Below are positions 4,615-37,100 of a stretch of 64,000 nucleotides of DNA, piece by piece (position 1 is the stretch's first letter; every line of letters begins with the position of its first letter). The notes under the pieces are model-generated. The model had not been told where the DNA came from, searched no databases, and saw only the letters and a list, made by a program, of their open reading frames with translations. The stretch is from Serratia fonticola (GTDB lineage: Bacteria; Pseudomonadota; Gammaproteobacteria; Enterobacterales; Enterobacteriaceae): NCBI RefSeq assembly GCF_001006005.1, contig NZ_CP011254.1:5828001-5892000 (forward strand), given 5' to 3'. The translations under genes were made by a program, and so were the position numbers.

Positions 4615-4650
4615 CCCCTCACCCTAACCCTCTCCCACAGGGAGAGGGGA
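4615..4650. repeat. REP-like palindrome, copy A
   Basis: A CCCCTCACCCTAACC lead is followed by the hairpin CCCTCTCCCACAGGGAGAGG. The same module occurs at 32717-32752 and, split by an insertion sequence, at 32865-32885 and 34007 onward. It starts the 70-bp tandem repeat cluster. Confidence 0.75.
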
Positions 4651-31662: not shown

Positions 31663-32694
31663 ATGGCCAATTCCATTGCCAAAAGGCTGCTGCTCAGCGC
31701 GGCGCTGATGCTGCTAGCCGCCTGTAACGATGCCAACACCCGCCCCCAGATCGACATCGAAGGCAAAACCATGGGGACGTTCTATAGCGTAAAGGTCAGC
31801 GGCACTATCACCGAGAGCAAACAACAATTGCAGCAGGAGATCGATGCGCTGCTGGAGCAGGCTAACGACGATATTTCCACCTACCGCCCCGATTCGGTGT
31901 TATCCCGCTTCAACCAGAACACCACTGCCGAGCCGCAGCCCATCCCCCGTGGAATGGCCGATATCATCCTCACCGCTCAGCGCATTGGCCGTGATACCGG
32001 AGGTGCTATGGATATCACCGTCGGCCCTTTGGTTAACCTGTGGGGCTTCGGCCCGGATAAGCGGGCCGTCAAAGTCCCCAGCCAGCAGCAGATCGACGTG
32101 GCTCGCCAGCATATTGGTTTGCAACATCTGAAGCTGCTGAGCGACAGCCGGGGTGAATGGCTGCAAAAAGATCTCCCGGAGATGTATGTCGATCTCTCCA
32201 CGCTAGGCGAAGGTTACGGCGTGGATCAGTTGGTCCAGTTGATGGCGCGCAAAGGCATCACCAACTATCTGGTATCGGTGGGTGGAGCCGTTTCATCACG
32301 CGGCGTGAATGGCCAGAACAAGCCTTGGAGGGTGGCAATCCAAAAGCCCACCGACCGGGAAAATGCGGTGCAAGCGCTGGTGGATTTGCAAGGCTACGGC
32401 ATCAGCACTGCGGGGAGTTATCGTAACTACTTCGAGCAGGACGGTCAGCGCTATTCCCACGTGATCGATCCCGTCACTGGGCGGCCTATCACCCATAAGC
32501 TGGTTTCCGTTACGGTGATTGCCCCTACGGCGTTGGAAGCCGATGGTTGGGATACCGGGTTGATGGTGCTGGGCACGGAAAAAGCGCTGAAACTGGCCGA
32601 AGAGAAAGGACTGGCGGTGTATCTGATCAGCAAAACCGATGACGGTTTCAGCGCGACGATGACGCCGCAGTTTAAGGCGTTTTTGGTGCAGTAA
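31663..32694 (+). CDS. apbE: ApbE FAD:protein FMN transferase
   Basis: Periplasmic lipoprotein that flavinylates threonine residues of NqrB/NqrC or RnfG/RnfD-type subunits using FAD. 343 residues with a lipobox LLAAC (Cys21), then the ApbE domain: GKTMGTFYSVKV, DISTYRPDSVLSRFNQN, AMDITVGPLVNLWGFGP, STLGEGYGVDQL and the YSHVIDPVTGRPI and DGWDTGLMVLG metal/FAD sites. The ATG at 31663 is the first giving a lipoprotein signal. A monocistronic gene followed by a REP-like palindrome. Confidence 0.95.
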   Translation: MANSIAKRLLLSAALMLLAACNDANTRPQIDIEGKTMGTFYSVKVSGTITESKQQLQQEIDALLEQANDDISTYRPDSVLSRFNQNTTAEPQPIPRGMADIILTAQRIGRDTGGAMDITVGPLVNLWGFGPDKRAVKVPSQQQIDVARQHIGLQHLKLLSDSRGEWLQKDLPEMYVDLSTLGEGYGVDQLVQLMARKGITNYLVSVGGAVSSRGVNGQNKPWRVAIQKPTDRENAVQALVDLQGYGISTAGSYRNYFEQDGQRYSHVIDPVTGRPITHKLVSVTVIAPTALEADGWDTGLMVLGTEKALKLAEEKGLAVYLISKTDDGFSATMTPQFKAFLVQ

Positions 32695-32716
32695 AGGGTT
32701 TTGATTCCCATGTTGT

Positions 32717-32752
32717 CCCCTCACCCTAACCCTCTCCCACAGGGAGAGGGGA
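32717..32752. repeat. REP-like palindrome, copy B
   Basis: CCCCTCACCCTAACC lead plus the CCCTCTCCCACAGGGAGAGG hairpin, 22 bases after the apbE stop. Same module as 4615-4650. Confidence 0.75.
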
Positions 32753-32864
32753 CCGATCGAGTTCGCTATTCGTTACAGAAACTTACCTGACCATGGCACT
32801 AAATCAACTGCCTTTTACCCTGCTAACAGATTGATCACGGCACCTTGCCACAACACTGTACCAG

Positions 32865-32885
32865 CTCCCTCTCCCTGTGGGAGAG
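32865..32885. repeat. REP-like palindrome, copy C, left part interrupted by IS110 element
   Basis: The plus strand shows CTCCCTCTCCCTGTGGGAGAG, the inverse of the palindrome in copies A and B, and stops at the element boundary. The continuation GGTTAGGG resumes at 34009. Confidence 0.75.
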
Positions 32886-32900
32886 ATACCGTCTTGTCGG

Positions 32901-33860
32901 CTATCCGGCAAGCGGTATTTCCGCATTAAATGTCTTTCCTGATTTCACCACACCATAGGCCAGTTGCAGCAGTTTTCGCATCGCCGCACACACTCTCTCT
33001 TTGCCCGATTTCCCACGCAACTTCAGTCTTTCTGTTAAGTCTTTAACCACAACATTGTATTGGCTTGCCACCACCGCGGGCATGTATAACGCGCTTCGTA
33101 GCTCACCGTGTCCCACTTTCGATAACCGGCTTTTCCCTTTAAACATCCCCGACTCACATCGCTGTGGATTCAGTCCTGCGTACGCTACCAGGGCCTTGCT
33201 GCTGGTGAACCGACGCAGGTTTCCTGCGAAGGCCAGCAGGCTGGAGCTCAGCATCTCTCCCACTCCAGGGATACTTTTTAGCAACTCGCTGTCCCGTTTC
33301 AGGTCAGGGTTATCATCGATGTGCTGACTGATTTTCTTCTTCGTTTCTCGTATCAGTTCATCCAACGTGGCGATGTGCTCATTGAGTGAAGGGACGATGA
33401 CTGCTTCGGCCACCTCCAGGCGATTTTCTTCCATCTGACGCATCTCTTCCAGGTTCTTAAGATGCCTGACCAACGCGGTCAACTGGCGTTCGCTCAACGG
33501 GGCTGGGAACCACGGGTCAGGCTGATGCAGTGCGCAGTAGCGGGCTATCATCGCTGCATCGCTTTTGTCCGTTTTGTTCCGGGCCAGTTCTGTATTGCCG
33601 AAGGAATGGATACACGCCGGGTTCATCAGACTGACGTGGTAGTTGTTGTCTGCCAGATAAGTGGCCAGTTCCGTACTGTAGCTCCCGGTGGCTTCCATAC
33701 AGACATGACAGTCGCCAAAGCGGCTCAACCAGGCTGCGAACTCGCGGCATCCAGAAGGGGTATTGGCAAACTTTTTGGTTTTATACTTCTGATTGTCCAG
33801 CAGTACGGCGACATCAAATTTGTGTTTGGCGATATCAACGCCGACAGGGGTTCTACGCAT
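32901..33860 (-). CDS. IS110-family transposase (DEDD/serine recombinase)
   Basis: 319-residue RNA-guided recombinase of the IS110 family. The N-terminal RuvC-like DEDD domain shows Asp9 (GVDIAKHKFDVAVL), Glu56 (CMEATGSY), Asp98 and Asp101 (NKTDKSDAAMIARY). A helical linker (about 120-180) leads to the Tnp_20 domain (about 192-280) with SIPGVGEMLSSSLLAFAG and the probable catalytic Ser237 in NPQRCESGMF. Full length with no frameshift, so possibly active. Confidence 0.93.
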   Translation of the reverse strand: MRRTPVGVDIAKHKFDVAVLLDNQKYKTKKFANTPSGCREFAAWLSRFGDCHVCMEATGSYSTELATYLADNNYHVSLMNPACIHSFGNTELARNKTDKSDAAMIARYCALHQPDPWFPAPLSERQLTALVRHLKNLEEMRQMEENRLEVAEAVIVPSLNEHIATLDELIRETKKKISQHIDDNPDLKRDSELLKSIPGVGEMLSSSLLAFAGNLRRFTSSKALVAYAGLNPQRCESGMFKGKSRLSKVGHGELRSALYMPAVVASQYNVVVKDLTERLKLRGKSGKERVCAAMRKLLQLAYGVVKSGKTFNAEIPLAG

Positions 33861-34006
33861 TATGGCACTCCATAACCATGTCTGAAATTTATCGCCGGAC
33901 CATCCTTATATGTGGGTGCTCATAGGCACAGGATACCGTTCGGTCTAGAAGGCGACAGGGAAATAGACAGCCGGGGCACAATCTCTCCCACGGGCTCATA
34001 GGCACT
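33861..34006 (-). ncRNA. Candidate bridge RNA region of the IS110 element
   Basis: The only noncoding part of the element large enough for a bridge (seek) RNA. Two guide-like features are visible. Bases 33918-33939 repeat the joined element ends (GCTCATAGGCAC then ATACCGT) with two mismatches over 22 bases. On the transposase strand, GTGGGAGAG (33984-33992) is complementary to the target half CTCTCCCAC including the CT core. The RNA itself, its ends and its fold are inferred from the family, not seen. Confidence 0.5.
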
Positions 34007-34051
34007 AGGGTTAGGGGGAGCTCACCGGCTATCTCCCGATGATCAGTCGGG

Positions 34052-34105
34052 GATCTTCTCCGCTAAGGCGGAGAAGATCAAGACATAAGGGTTGGGGTGA
34101 GGGGC
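34052..34105. repeat. REP-like hairpin, copy D, downstream of cusA
   Basis: A perfect 12-bp stem (GATCTTCTCCGC with GCGGAGAAGATC, 34052-34079) is followed by AGGGTTGGGGTGAGGGG, the inverse of the lead seen in copies A and B. It lies just after the cusA stop and may end that transcript. Confidence 0.6.
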
Positions 34106-34108
34106 CGA

Positions 34109-37100
34109 CTACTCTGCCTCAGCACCGGGTTTTTCATCCTTGCGGTGCAGCAGCGAATACACCGCCGGGATCACCAACATCGATAACAATGGCGCACTCA
34201 CCATACCGCCAATCATCGGTGCGGCAATCCGCTGCATCACCTCTGAGCCAGCACCACCGCCCCACATAATCGGCAGTAAACCGGCCATAATGGTCGCCAC
34301 CGTCATCACCTTCGGCCTGACGCGCAACACCGCCCCTTCGCTAATCGCCACCATCAGTTGCTGATGACTCAACGGCTGACCGGGCTGACGATGTTTCGCC
34401 AACGCCTGATTAAGGTACAGCACCATAATCACGCCAAACTCCGCCGCCACCCCGGCCAGGGCAATAAAGCCTACCGCCCCCGCCACCGACAGGTTGTAAT
34501 CGAGCAGATACAGCAGCCAGACCCCGCCTATCAGCGCAAACGGCAGCGTCGCCATGATCAGCAGCGCATCGCTCACGCTGTTGAAGGTGACAAACAGCAG
34601 CACGAAGATGATCGCCAGCGTTACCGGCAGCACAATCTTCAACTGGGCGCTAGCGCGTTCCAGATACTCAAACTGCCCGGACCAACTTAGGGAAACCCCG
34701 GCAGGCAGCTTCACCTGCTGTGCCACCACCTGCTGCATCTCTTCCACCGCCGATTTCAAATCGCGCCCGCGCAGATCGACATAGATCCAATCCGAAAGCC
34801 GGGCGTTATCGCTTTTCAGCATCGGTGGCCCTTCGGTGATGCGAATATCCGCCAGTTCTGCCAAAGGTACTTGCCCACCCGTCGCCGTCACCACCGGCAA
34901 TTCACGCAGCTTTTGCAGAGAATCACGGATCTCCCTTGGATAACGGACGTTGATCGGATAACGCGCGCGTCCTTCAATGGTTTCAGCGATGTTTTCCCCA
35001 CCCACCAACGTAGAGACCACCGATTGCAGCTCTTTCACCGAAACGCCGTAACGTGCCGCACGCTGGCGATCGATATCGATATCCACATAGCGCCCTCCAG
35101 CCAGGCGCTCCGCCAGTGCGGAAGTCACACCTGGAACCTGCTTCACCACCTGCTCAATCTGGCTGGCCGCCTGCTCAATATCGGCAATATTGCTGCCGTT
35201 GACCTTGATACCTACCGGGCTTTTGATGCCGGTCGCCAGCATATCCAGACGGTTACGGATCGGCGGCACCCAGACGTTGGCAATACCGGGCACCTTGACC
35301 ACGCTGTCCAGTTCGGCCACCAGCTTGTCCATCGTCATGCCGGGCCGCCACTGGTCGCGGGGCTTAAAGCGAATGGTGGTTTCCAACATGGTTAGCGGAG
35401 CCGGATCGGTTGCCGTCTCCGCTCGCCCAGCCTTGCCAAAGACCGTGTCCACTTCTGGCACGGTTTTGATCAACCTGTCGGTCAATTGCAGCAGCCGTGC
35501 CGCCTCGCGGGCCGAGATCCCCGGCAGGGTCGAAGGCATATACAGCAGATCCCCTTCGTCCAGCGGGGGCATAAACTCGCTGCCCAGGCGGCTGAGCGGG
35601 AATAGGGTCAGCACCAACAGCAGAGCGGAAATCCCCAGAGTGGTTTTAGGCCGTGCCAGCACCGCTGCCAGCAACGGCTGATACATGCGGATCAACCAGC
35701 GATTGATCGGGTTGGCATGTTCGTCCGGAATGCGGCCCCGGATAAAATAGCCCATCAGCACCGGCACCAGCGTGATGCCCAACCCGGCGGATACCGCCAT
35801 CGCATAGGTTTTGGTGAACGCCAATGGCGCAAACATCCGCCCTTCCTGCGCCTGTAGCGAAAACACCGGGATAAACGACAGGGTAATGATCAACAGACTA
35901 CAGAACAGCGCCGGGCCAACCTCCACCGCCGCTTGCTCAGAAATGTGCCAGTAATCTTTTGAGGTGGGCTGCTGGCCGGGATGGCGTTGCCGCCACTGCT
36001 CGAGCACTTTGTGCATGTTTTCGATCATTACGATCGCCGCATCCACCATCGCGCCGATAGCAATAGCTATTCCCCCCAGCGACATGATGTTGGCGTTAAC
36101 CCCTTGATAATGCATCACCACAAAGGCGCCCAGGATCCCCAGCGGTAGAGTCACCATCGCCACCAGCGCCGAGCGGAAGTGGGACAGGAACAAGGCGCAC
36201 ACCACCGCAACCACCAGGAACTCTTCCAACAGCTTGAATGACAGCGTATCGATCGCATGCTCGATCAGTTGCGATCGGTCATAAACCGGCACGATCTCCA
36301 CGCCCGGCGGCAGAGTGTGCTGAAGCTGTTGCAGCTTGACCTTCAGCGCATTAATGGTTTCCAGCGCATTCTTACCGTAGCGCATGACCACAATGCCACC
36401 CGCCACTTCACCTTCACCGTTGAGCTCCGCCACGCCACGGCGGATTTCCGGCCCCTCACGCAGTTCTGCGACCTGTGACAACAGGATCGGCACACCGTCG
36501 CGCGCAGTGATCACCACGTTATTAAAGTCGGCGAGTTTTTTCAGGTAGCCGGAGGTGCGCACCATATACTCAGCCTCCCCCATCTCCAGCAGCGCACCGC
36601 CGCCTTCCTGGTTGGCATCCTGAATGGCGCTCACCACCTGCTGATGGGTAATATTCAGCGCCCGCATACTTTGCGGATTTAATATCACCTGATATTGCCG
36701 CACCATGCCGCCAACGCTGGCCACTTCCGCGACGTTAGGCACGGTTTTCAGTTCGAACTTGAGCGTCCAGTCCTGCAAGGCGCGCAGATCCGCCAGGCTG
36801 TGTTTACCTGTACGATCGACTAGCGCATACTCATAAACCCAACCAACGCCGGTAGCATCCGGCCCCAGCGCCACTTTGACCTGCGGCGGCAGCGAAGACT
36901 GCACCTGACTGAGTGACTCCAACACCCGCGAACGCGCCCAGTAAGGATCGGTACCATCTTCAAACAGAATGTAGACGTAGGCATCGCCGAACATGGAGAA
37001 ACCCCGCACCGTGCTGGCTCCCGGCACCGTCAGCATGGTGGTGGTCAGCGGGTAGGTCACCTGATCTTCGATCACCTGCGGCGCTTTGCCCGGATAGGTC

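Follow-up and report, generated by a model that had tools for sequence, protein, structure and literature searches.

The 64,000-nucleotide stretch of the Serratia fonticola genome analysed here (further referred to as the window) carries an IS110-type element that interrupts a sequence resembling a repetitive extragenic palindrome (REP), and the locus raises the question of how such an element is directed to the repeat and where its own sequence stops. A first-pass annotation had bounded the element at 32884 and 34008 and had proposed that its noncoding end encodes a bridge RNA. The comparison of copies, relatives and predicted RNA structure presented below moves the right boundary of the element and indicates, on the basis of sequence, that this 1.2-kb IS110 very probably expresses a bridge RNA, predicted to pair both with the REP-like repeat and with the junction of the two element ends, so that insertion would be guided to a CT dinucleotide.

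Recombinase and family assignment

The minus-strand gene at 32901..33860 encodes an IS110 recombinase of 319 amino acids with the DEDD residues D9, E56, D98 and D101 and the serine S237. The domains PF01548 (E 1.4e-27) and PF02371 (E 8.3e-23) as well as the model NF033542 were found in it above their cut-offs, and the five catalytic residues align with D11, E60, D102, D105 and S241, which are named as catalytic for IS621 in the available extracts of the literature. The nearest solved chains by sequence are those of ISCro4 (9t56) and IS621. A further match of 32901-33860, to the model NF052498 for the TIGR-Tas endonuclease, has an E-value of 2.4e-7 and stays far under the cut-off of that model.

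The layout of the element is that of the IS110 group, with 227 bp of noncoding sequence upstream of the gene and 15 bp from the stop codon to the core downstream. According to extracts of published descriptions a long upstream noncoding end separates the IS110 group from the IS1111 group; the IS1111 group is recognised by a downstream noncoding region and by subterminal inverted repeats, and the downstream end of the present element comprises only the 15 bp. On the features tested the element is grouped by its sequence with the IS621-type IS110 elements. The best full-length relatives found outside this genome are 61-63% identical (in genome G091 and on Candidatus Fukatsuia plasmids), nearer relatives being represented by fragments only (G002 and G054). 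No match was obtained by blastn against E. coli genomes, and the scan of genome contigs resulted in one locus, a remnant in Serratia silvae.

Element ends and genomic copies

The interval 32884-34008 is present in six copies in the 6.0-Mb single contig that holds the window, five of them listed with an identity of 100% and the sixth with 99%, and this near-identity suggests recent movement. When the copies were compared, the sequence common to all six continued on the right side through 34089, that is, 81 bp beyond 34008, with a difference of one base in this stretch in a single copy (L006), and on the left side AG followed by ATACCGTC was common to the copies. Divergence sets in beyond the REP-like sequence on the left and, in all six copies, after the REP-like flank on the right. 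Recombination between homologous REPs, or the duplication of longer stretches of DNA, could in principle also have multiplied the element, as the REPs occur many times and its copies are almost the same; however, once the REP-like sequence ends, the six copies have different flanks on the left as well as on the right, and every junction is located at the same CT, which leaves this route hardly any probability in comparison with guided insertion.

The question of the right end concerns the 80 bp at 34009-34088. If the element ended at 34008, where AG and a REP-like string do stand (34007-34016), these 80 bp would belong to the target repeat. Nevertheless, they have six matches in the genome, every one adjoining an element copy, and they carry the end CT-T[AG]T[AG]T that is found in 30 of 31 related loci. 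Moreover, they are absent, together with the element, from the orthologous intergenic site of another genome of the genus (G004, locus L127), which is an uninterrupted REP, CTCCCTCTCCCTTTGGGAGAGGGTTGGGATGAGGGG. An end at 34008 is therefore extremely unlikely. The right-hand flanking gene was found in six of six other genomes of the genus that were compared; no intact REP was seen at the orthologous gap in the remaining five, where degenerate REP-like strings (G002 and G001) or, in three genomes, other sequence is found.

The corrected reading, based on the six copies, the search with the 80 bp and the empty G004 site, puts the minus-strand element body at 32886..34087 (1202 bp), between the cores AG 32884-32885 and AG 34088-34089, which read CT on the transposase strand. 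The right end (32886..32900, minus strand) holds the left donor sequence ACGGTAT before the core, as read from the sequence; it is followed on the same strand, at 32866..32885, by the right target half of the REP-like repeat into which the element is inserted; this half includes the core at 32884-32885 and RT, CTCCCAC, at 32883-32877. The other minus-strand junction (34088..34104) consists of the core at 34088-34089 and the left target half CCCCTCACCCCAACC. The CT core is common to both ends and the target in six of six copies and is also present at the empty G004 site. Among the 31 related loci examined the left-end motif CT-T[AG]T[AG] occurs in 30 and the right end GTAT-CT in 24 (L100 has GAAT-CT).

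As a result, the IS110 element with a CT core, as first proposed, is upheld by the domains PF01548 and PF02371 and by the CT of all six copies, and copies with unrelated flanks were looked for and not found, all six lying in REP-like sequence, whereas the boundary at 34008 has to be given up. Both AG pairs then described as junctions do exist, at 32884-32885 and at 34007-34008, but the latter is not the right end, which is at 34088-34089; positions 34007-34015 are the left target guide, which reproduces the target within the RNA. The noncoding end is one of 227 bp (33861-34087) and not of 147 bases, the earlier boundary having excluded the 5' stem-loop and a portion of the target-binding loop. 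The flanks joined at 34008, which had been taken to restore the REP, looked REP-like because the left target guide copies the target, while the true flanks joined read GTGGGAGAGGGTTGGGGTGAGGGG. For the same reason this class of element sets a trap for annotation, in which the element end can be misplaced inside the element's own RNA gene.

Predicted bridge RNA

The noncoding left end (33861..34087, minus strand, 227 bp) is the predicted bridge RNA gene, with the RNA start near 34079. The fold predicted for 33885-34079 on the minus strand has an energy of -77.4 kcal/mol (z -5.26; none of 200 shuffles as good) and includes a 12-bp 5' stem-loop, a small hairpin, a target loop and a donor loop. 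The predicted stem-loop (34052..34079, minus strand) is GATCTTCTCCGC-CTTA-GCGGAGAAGATC, with 5 of its 12 pairs changed on both sides. The predicted target-binding loop (33966..34033, minus strand) is closed by GATAGCCGG (34033-34025) with CCGGCTGTC (33974-33966), and in this helix 3 four of 10 pairs are changed on both sides; in the donor-binding loop (33890..33957, minus strand) TGTCGCC (33957-33951) would close with GGCGATA (33896-33890). Scored on an alignment of 7 sequences, the window element contributing two copies, the structure is paired in 94% of cells and has changes on both sides in 11 of 43 pairs, against 30-45% paired in slid alignments used as control; having been derived from one of the 7 sequences scored, it is at an advantage in this comparison. 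The number of further pair types was no better than in shuffles (262 of 500 as high), and nothing in Rfam matched 32600-34200 at E up to 1.

Four guides were placed in the two predicted internal loops in the IS621 order, that is, left target guide (LTG), right target guide (RTG), left donor guide (LDG) and a discontinuous right donor guide (RDG), all on the minus strand, and together with the two-loop fold they bear out the earlier suggestion that the noncoding end is bridge-RNA-like. The putative LTG, CCTAACCCT at 34007..34015, is a copy of the left target. The putative RTG, GTGGGAGAG, is the string already proposed as a target guide; it stands on the minus strand at 33991-33983 (33983..33991) and is followed by AT at the handshake positions of the IS621 numbering. 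The putative LDG, ACGGTATC at 33932..33939, is like the right end, and the putative RDG, ACATATAAG at 33905..33913, would pair with the left-end CTTATGT given a two-base bulge and is compatible only with the corrected left end of the element. This is the scheme of IS621, in which, as described in extracts of two papers (PMC11208160, PMC11208158), nine RNA bases of the RDG face seven bases of the donor and positions 159-160 are flipped out. The AU after the RTG would pair with the AT of the donor before the core, like the handshake described in published extracts, while only the first of the two bases GA after the RDG would find a partner in the target. The expectation that guide segments lie in internal loops is borne out by their placement in the two predicted loops. 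The free-RNA fold, in which the guides partly pair with each other rather than lying open, counts against the proposed reading.

The first reading had also described 33918-33939 as a near-copy of the circular junction. The match of 20 of 22 bases is true, but only ACGGTATC in it is the LDG, the rest being the hairpin GTGCCTATGAGC. This apical hairpin is present in both the target loop (34006-33992) and the donor loop (33929-33916, both on the minus strand), and in the aligned relatives the hairpin of the target loop differs. One RNA loop may have been copied from the other.

The candidate sigma-70 promoter of the joined ends, TTGCCG-17-TATCTT, is a weak consensus match of 8 of 12 bases, counted without a control. 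Its predicted -35 box TTGCCG is located just upstream of 32886..32900 on the minus strand and overlaps the gene end, and a candidate junction promoter at the same place was among the three best in only 7 of 12 elements.

Guides and insertion sites across relatives

Conserved RNA structure by itself is no proof of guidance, and the recombinase might recognise the REP on its own with the conserved RNA merely regulating expression, as the small RNAs of ISPpu9 are reported, in an available extract, to regulate the expression of its transposase. This possibility was confronted with the variation of guides among relatives. The guides were cut from the noncoding-end alignment at columns fixed on the window element, without using the targets of the other elements. 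From 31 loci those with no recognised right end were dropped (L074, L079, L083, L095, L097, L098 and L099, the last one also without a left end), which left 24 sites in 13 elements. Over this set the agreement of the LTG with the site of its own element was 5.5 of 7 non-core bases vs 2.3 with the sites of other elements, and that of the RTG 3.5 of 5 vs 1.8; neither the LTG nor the RTG value was reached in any of 100,000 permutations of the 13 elements, and no other site gave a better match than the own one for the left guide in 11 elements out of 13 and for the right guide in 9. A held-out set of 14 elements, taken class-wide from 17 loci after L136, L138 and L141 were dropped for having no left-end motif, gave 6.1 vs 2.7 for the LTG and 3.6 vs 1.9 for the RTG (0 of 100,000 permutations each). 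If there was a choice of right ends, that ending GTAT-CT was used, which in L135 and L148 is located 223 and 314 bases beyond the match, respectively; L100 and L076 were retained with their misplaced left guides, and truncated or fragmentary relatives were excluded from both tests.

At the donor end TAAG is present in the donor guide of 5 of 5 CTTA-starting elements with a candidate and CAAG in that of 21 of 21 CTTG-starting elements, in a count where 7 of 33 rows have no candidate and some rows are near-duplicates. The target guides vary with the insertion sites to the left as well as to the right of the core, a pattern not expected from regulation, and a purely regulatory role of the RNA beside a REP-recognising protein is very unlikely. 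Guidance of the recombinase by the RNA is the preferred reading, and the differing guides of the relatives fit their differing sites.

In the copies of the window element itself the LTG CCTAACCCT matches the left target at 9 of 9 bases in four copies and at 8 of 9 in two (L001 and L002), and the RTG matches the right target at 9, 7, 9, 8, 9 and 8 of 9 bases in L001-L006, respectively. The Serratia silvae remnant, a single case, has T first in both guide and left target (TCTAACCCT), where the guide of the window element has C. Wobble pairing across relatives was also considered: at those sites where 5 or more of the 7 bases match, the LTG has 14 distinct mismatches, namely 5 wobble transitions, 2 other transitions and 7 transversions, too thin a support for a claim, and no literature joining bridge RNA, IS110 and wobble was found. 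The search with the pattern CTTGTAT gave fewer matches than its reversed control.

Supply of REP-like targets

Insertion into REP sequences is already published for IS621 and other elements, Choi (2003) being among the works cited. The six copies of the present element sit at the same CT of a REP-like repeat in otherwise different flanks, the site of L002 being partly degenerate. When no more than 2 mismatches are allowed, GGGAGAGGGTTRGGGTGAGGG has 296 REP-like matches in the genome, 148 per strand, and the exact 14-base target CCYAACCCTCTCCC is found at 239 genome sites (124 and 115 per strand), the reversed control being 0 in both searches; the early proposal of a target guide matched to a genomic REP-like family with many possible landing sites is in agreement with this number. 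The T form accounts for 113 of the exact targets and therefore the C form for 126; L001 and L002 are inserted in the C form and L003-L006 in the T form. The LTG carries U at the sole position where the REP family has these two common forms, and therefore a U-A or U-G pair would accept both.

Two exact targets are located in the window, at 4623-4636 and at 32725-32738. The latter, CCTAACCCTCTCCC, is about 150 bp from the insertion and belongs to a neighbouring uninterrupted REP-like copy in the opposite orientation (32718..32755, plus strand). In close inverted REP pairs, among the matches listed, one member is usually GGGTTAGGG and the other GGGTTGGGG. No literature joining Serratia, IS110 and repetitive extragenic palindromic was found.

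A second IS110 element on the same repeat

Another IS110 element of the same genome (L038, genome positions 968739-969647) has 33% protein identity to the window element and one copy; it was not found in 294 other genomes at E up to 1e-70, and no relative of it was found in viral contigs. Its right end, as read here, is at CT-CTCCCTGTGGGAGAGGGTTAGGG; this is a REP, and the insertion is in the arm of the REP palindrome opposite to that interrupted by the window element. The noncoding end of L038 carries GTGGGAGAG, the same 9-base RTG as the window element, and its guides match its own site at 7 of 9 bases on the right and, with the left guide placed by eye, at 6 of 9 on the left. The 9-mer common to both elements may be partly inherited, because a plasmid relative of L038 (L155) has GTGGGTGAG, one base from it, at the aligned place. 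Taken together, the same RTG on one REP palindrome would mean that two lineages met on one repeat. From this meeting, and from the U guide that fits both forms of the repeat, it might be supposed that a repeat family serves as a common docking platform to which bridge RNAs become adapted, a supposition that is for the moment rather doubtful.

Palindromic surroundings were also observed for other relatives. At the starts of nine G054 contigs (L101-L109) near-relative fragments end GTAT-CT and then TGA in 9 of 9 cases, with a matching inverted string, for example GCGTTCAA, coming next in 8 of them; this near relative apparently homes to a different palindromic repeat. A 45%-identical relative in G782 (L137) has the RTG GCGGGAGAG, adjoins CTCTCCCC, which looks REP-like, and has a second, inverted copy of its own left end within about 50 bases.

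Proposed mechanism and comparison with known systems

In the proposed mechanism the element would be excised as a circle, whose joined ends would form the promoter TTGCCG-17-TATCTT; the bridge RNA would be made from the left end and bound by the recombinase, and is predicted to pair with the REP-like repeat and with the joined ends of the element, after which the recombinase would insert the element at the CT common to the target and the joined ends. According to extracts of the literature, REP homing and RNA guidance are already published for the IS110 family. The present locus contributes a further recombinase of the IS621 type, apparently intact and present in several copies, whose natural guide is directed at a repeat that offers 239 exact targets in one genome, and with a second, distant IS110 in the same repeat it becomes testable whether REPs favour RNA-guided homing.

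The closest described system is IS621 of E. coli, an IS110-family element with a bridge RNA, which is similar in recombinase architecture, catalytic residues and CT core and, as far as the available extracts describe it, in the noncoding end upstream of the gene, the order LTG-RTG-LDG-RDG, the discontinuous RDG and the insertion into REP. In contrast to IS621, the window element has other guides and another REP family, a predicted RNA start nearer the end and a far shorter right end, with the core 15 bases after the match end vs 132 in IS621 copies, and the protein identity between it and IS621-annotated plasmid copies is about 45%. ISCro4 (9t56) is the best solved-structure match by recombinase sequence. 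The IS110s of Candidatus Fukatsuia plasmids and G091 share with the window element a 61-63% identical recombinase, the same end motifs and the same RNA layout, but differ in their guides and matching target sites. Finally, ISPpu9, ISPpu10, ISPa11 and ISPsy8 are similar in their insertion into REP, as it is described in extracts of the published reports (PMC1525189; for ISPa11 PMC11187229).
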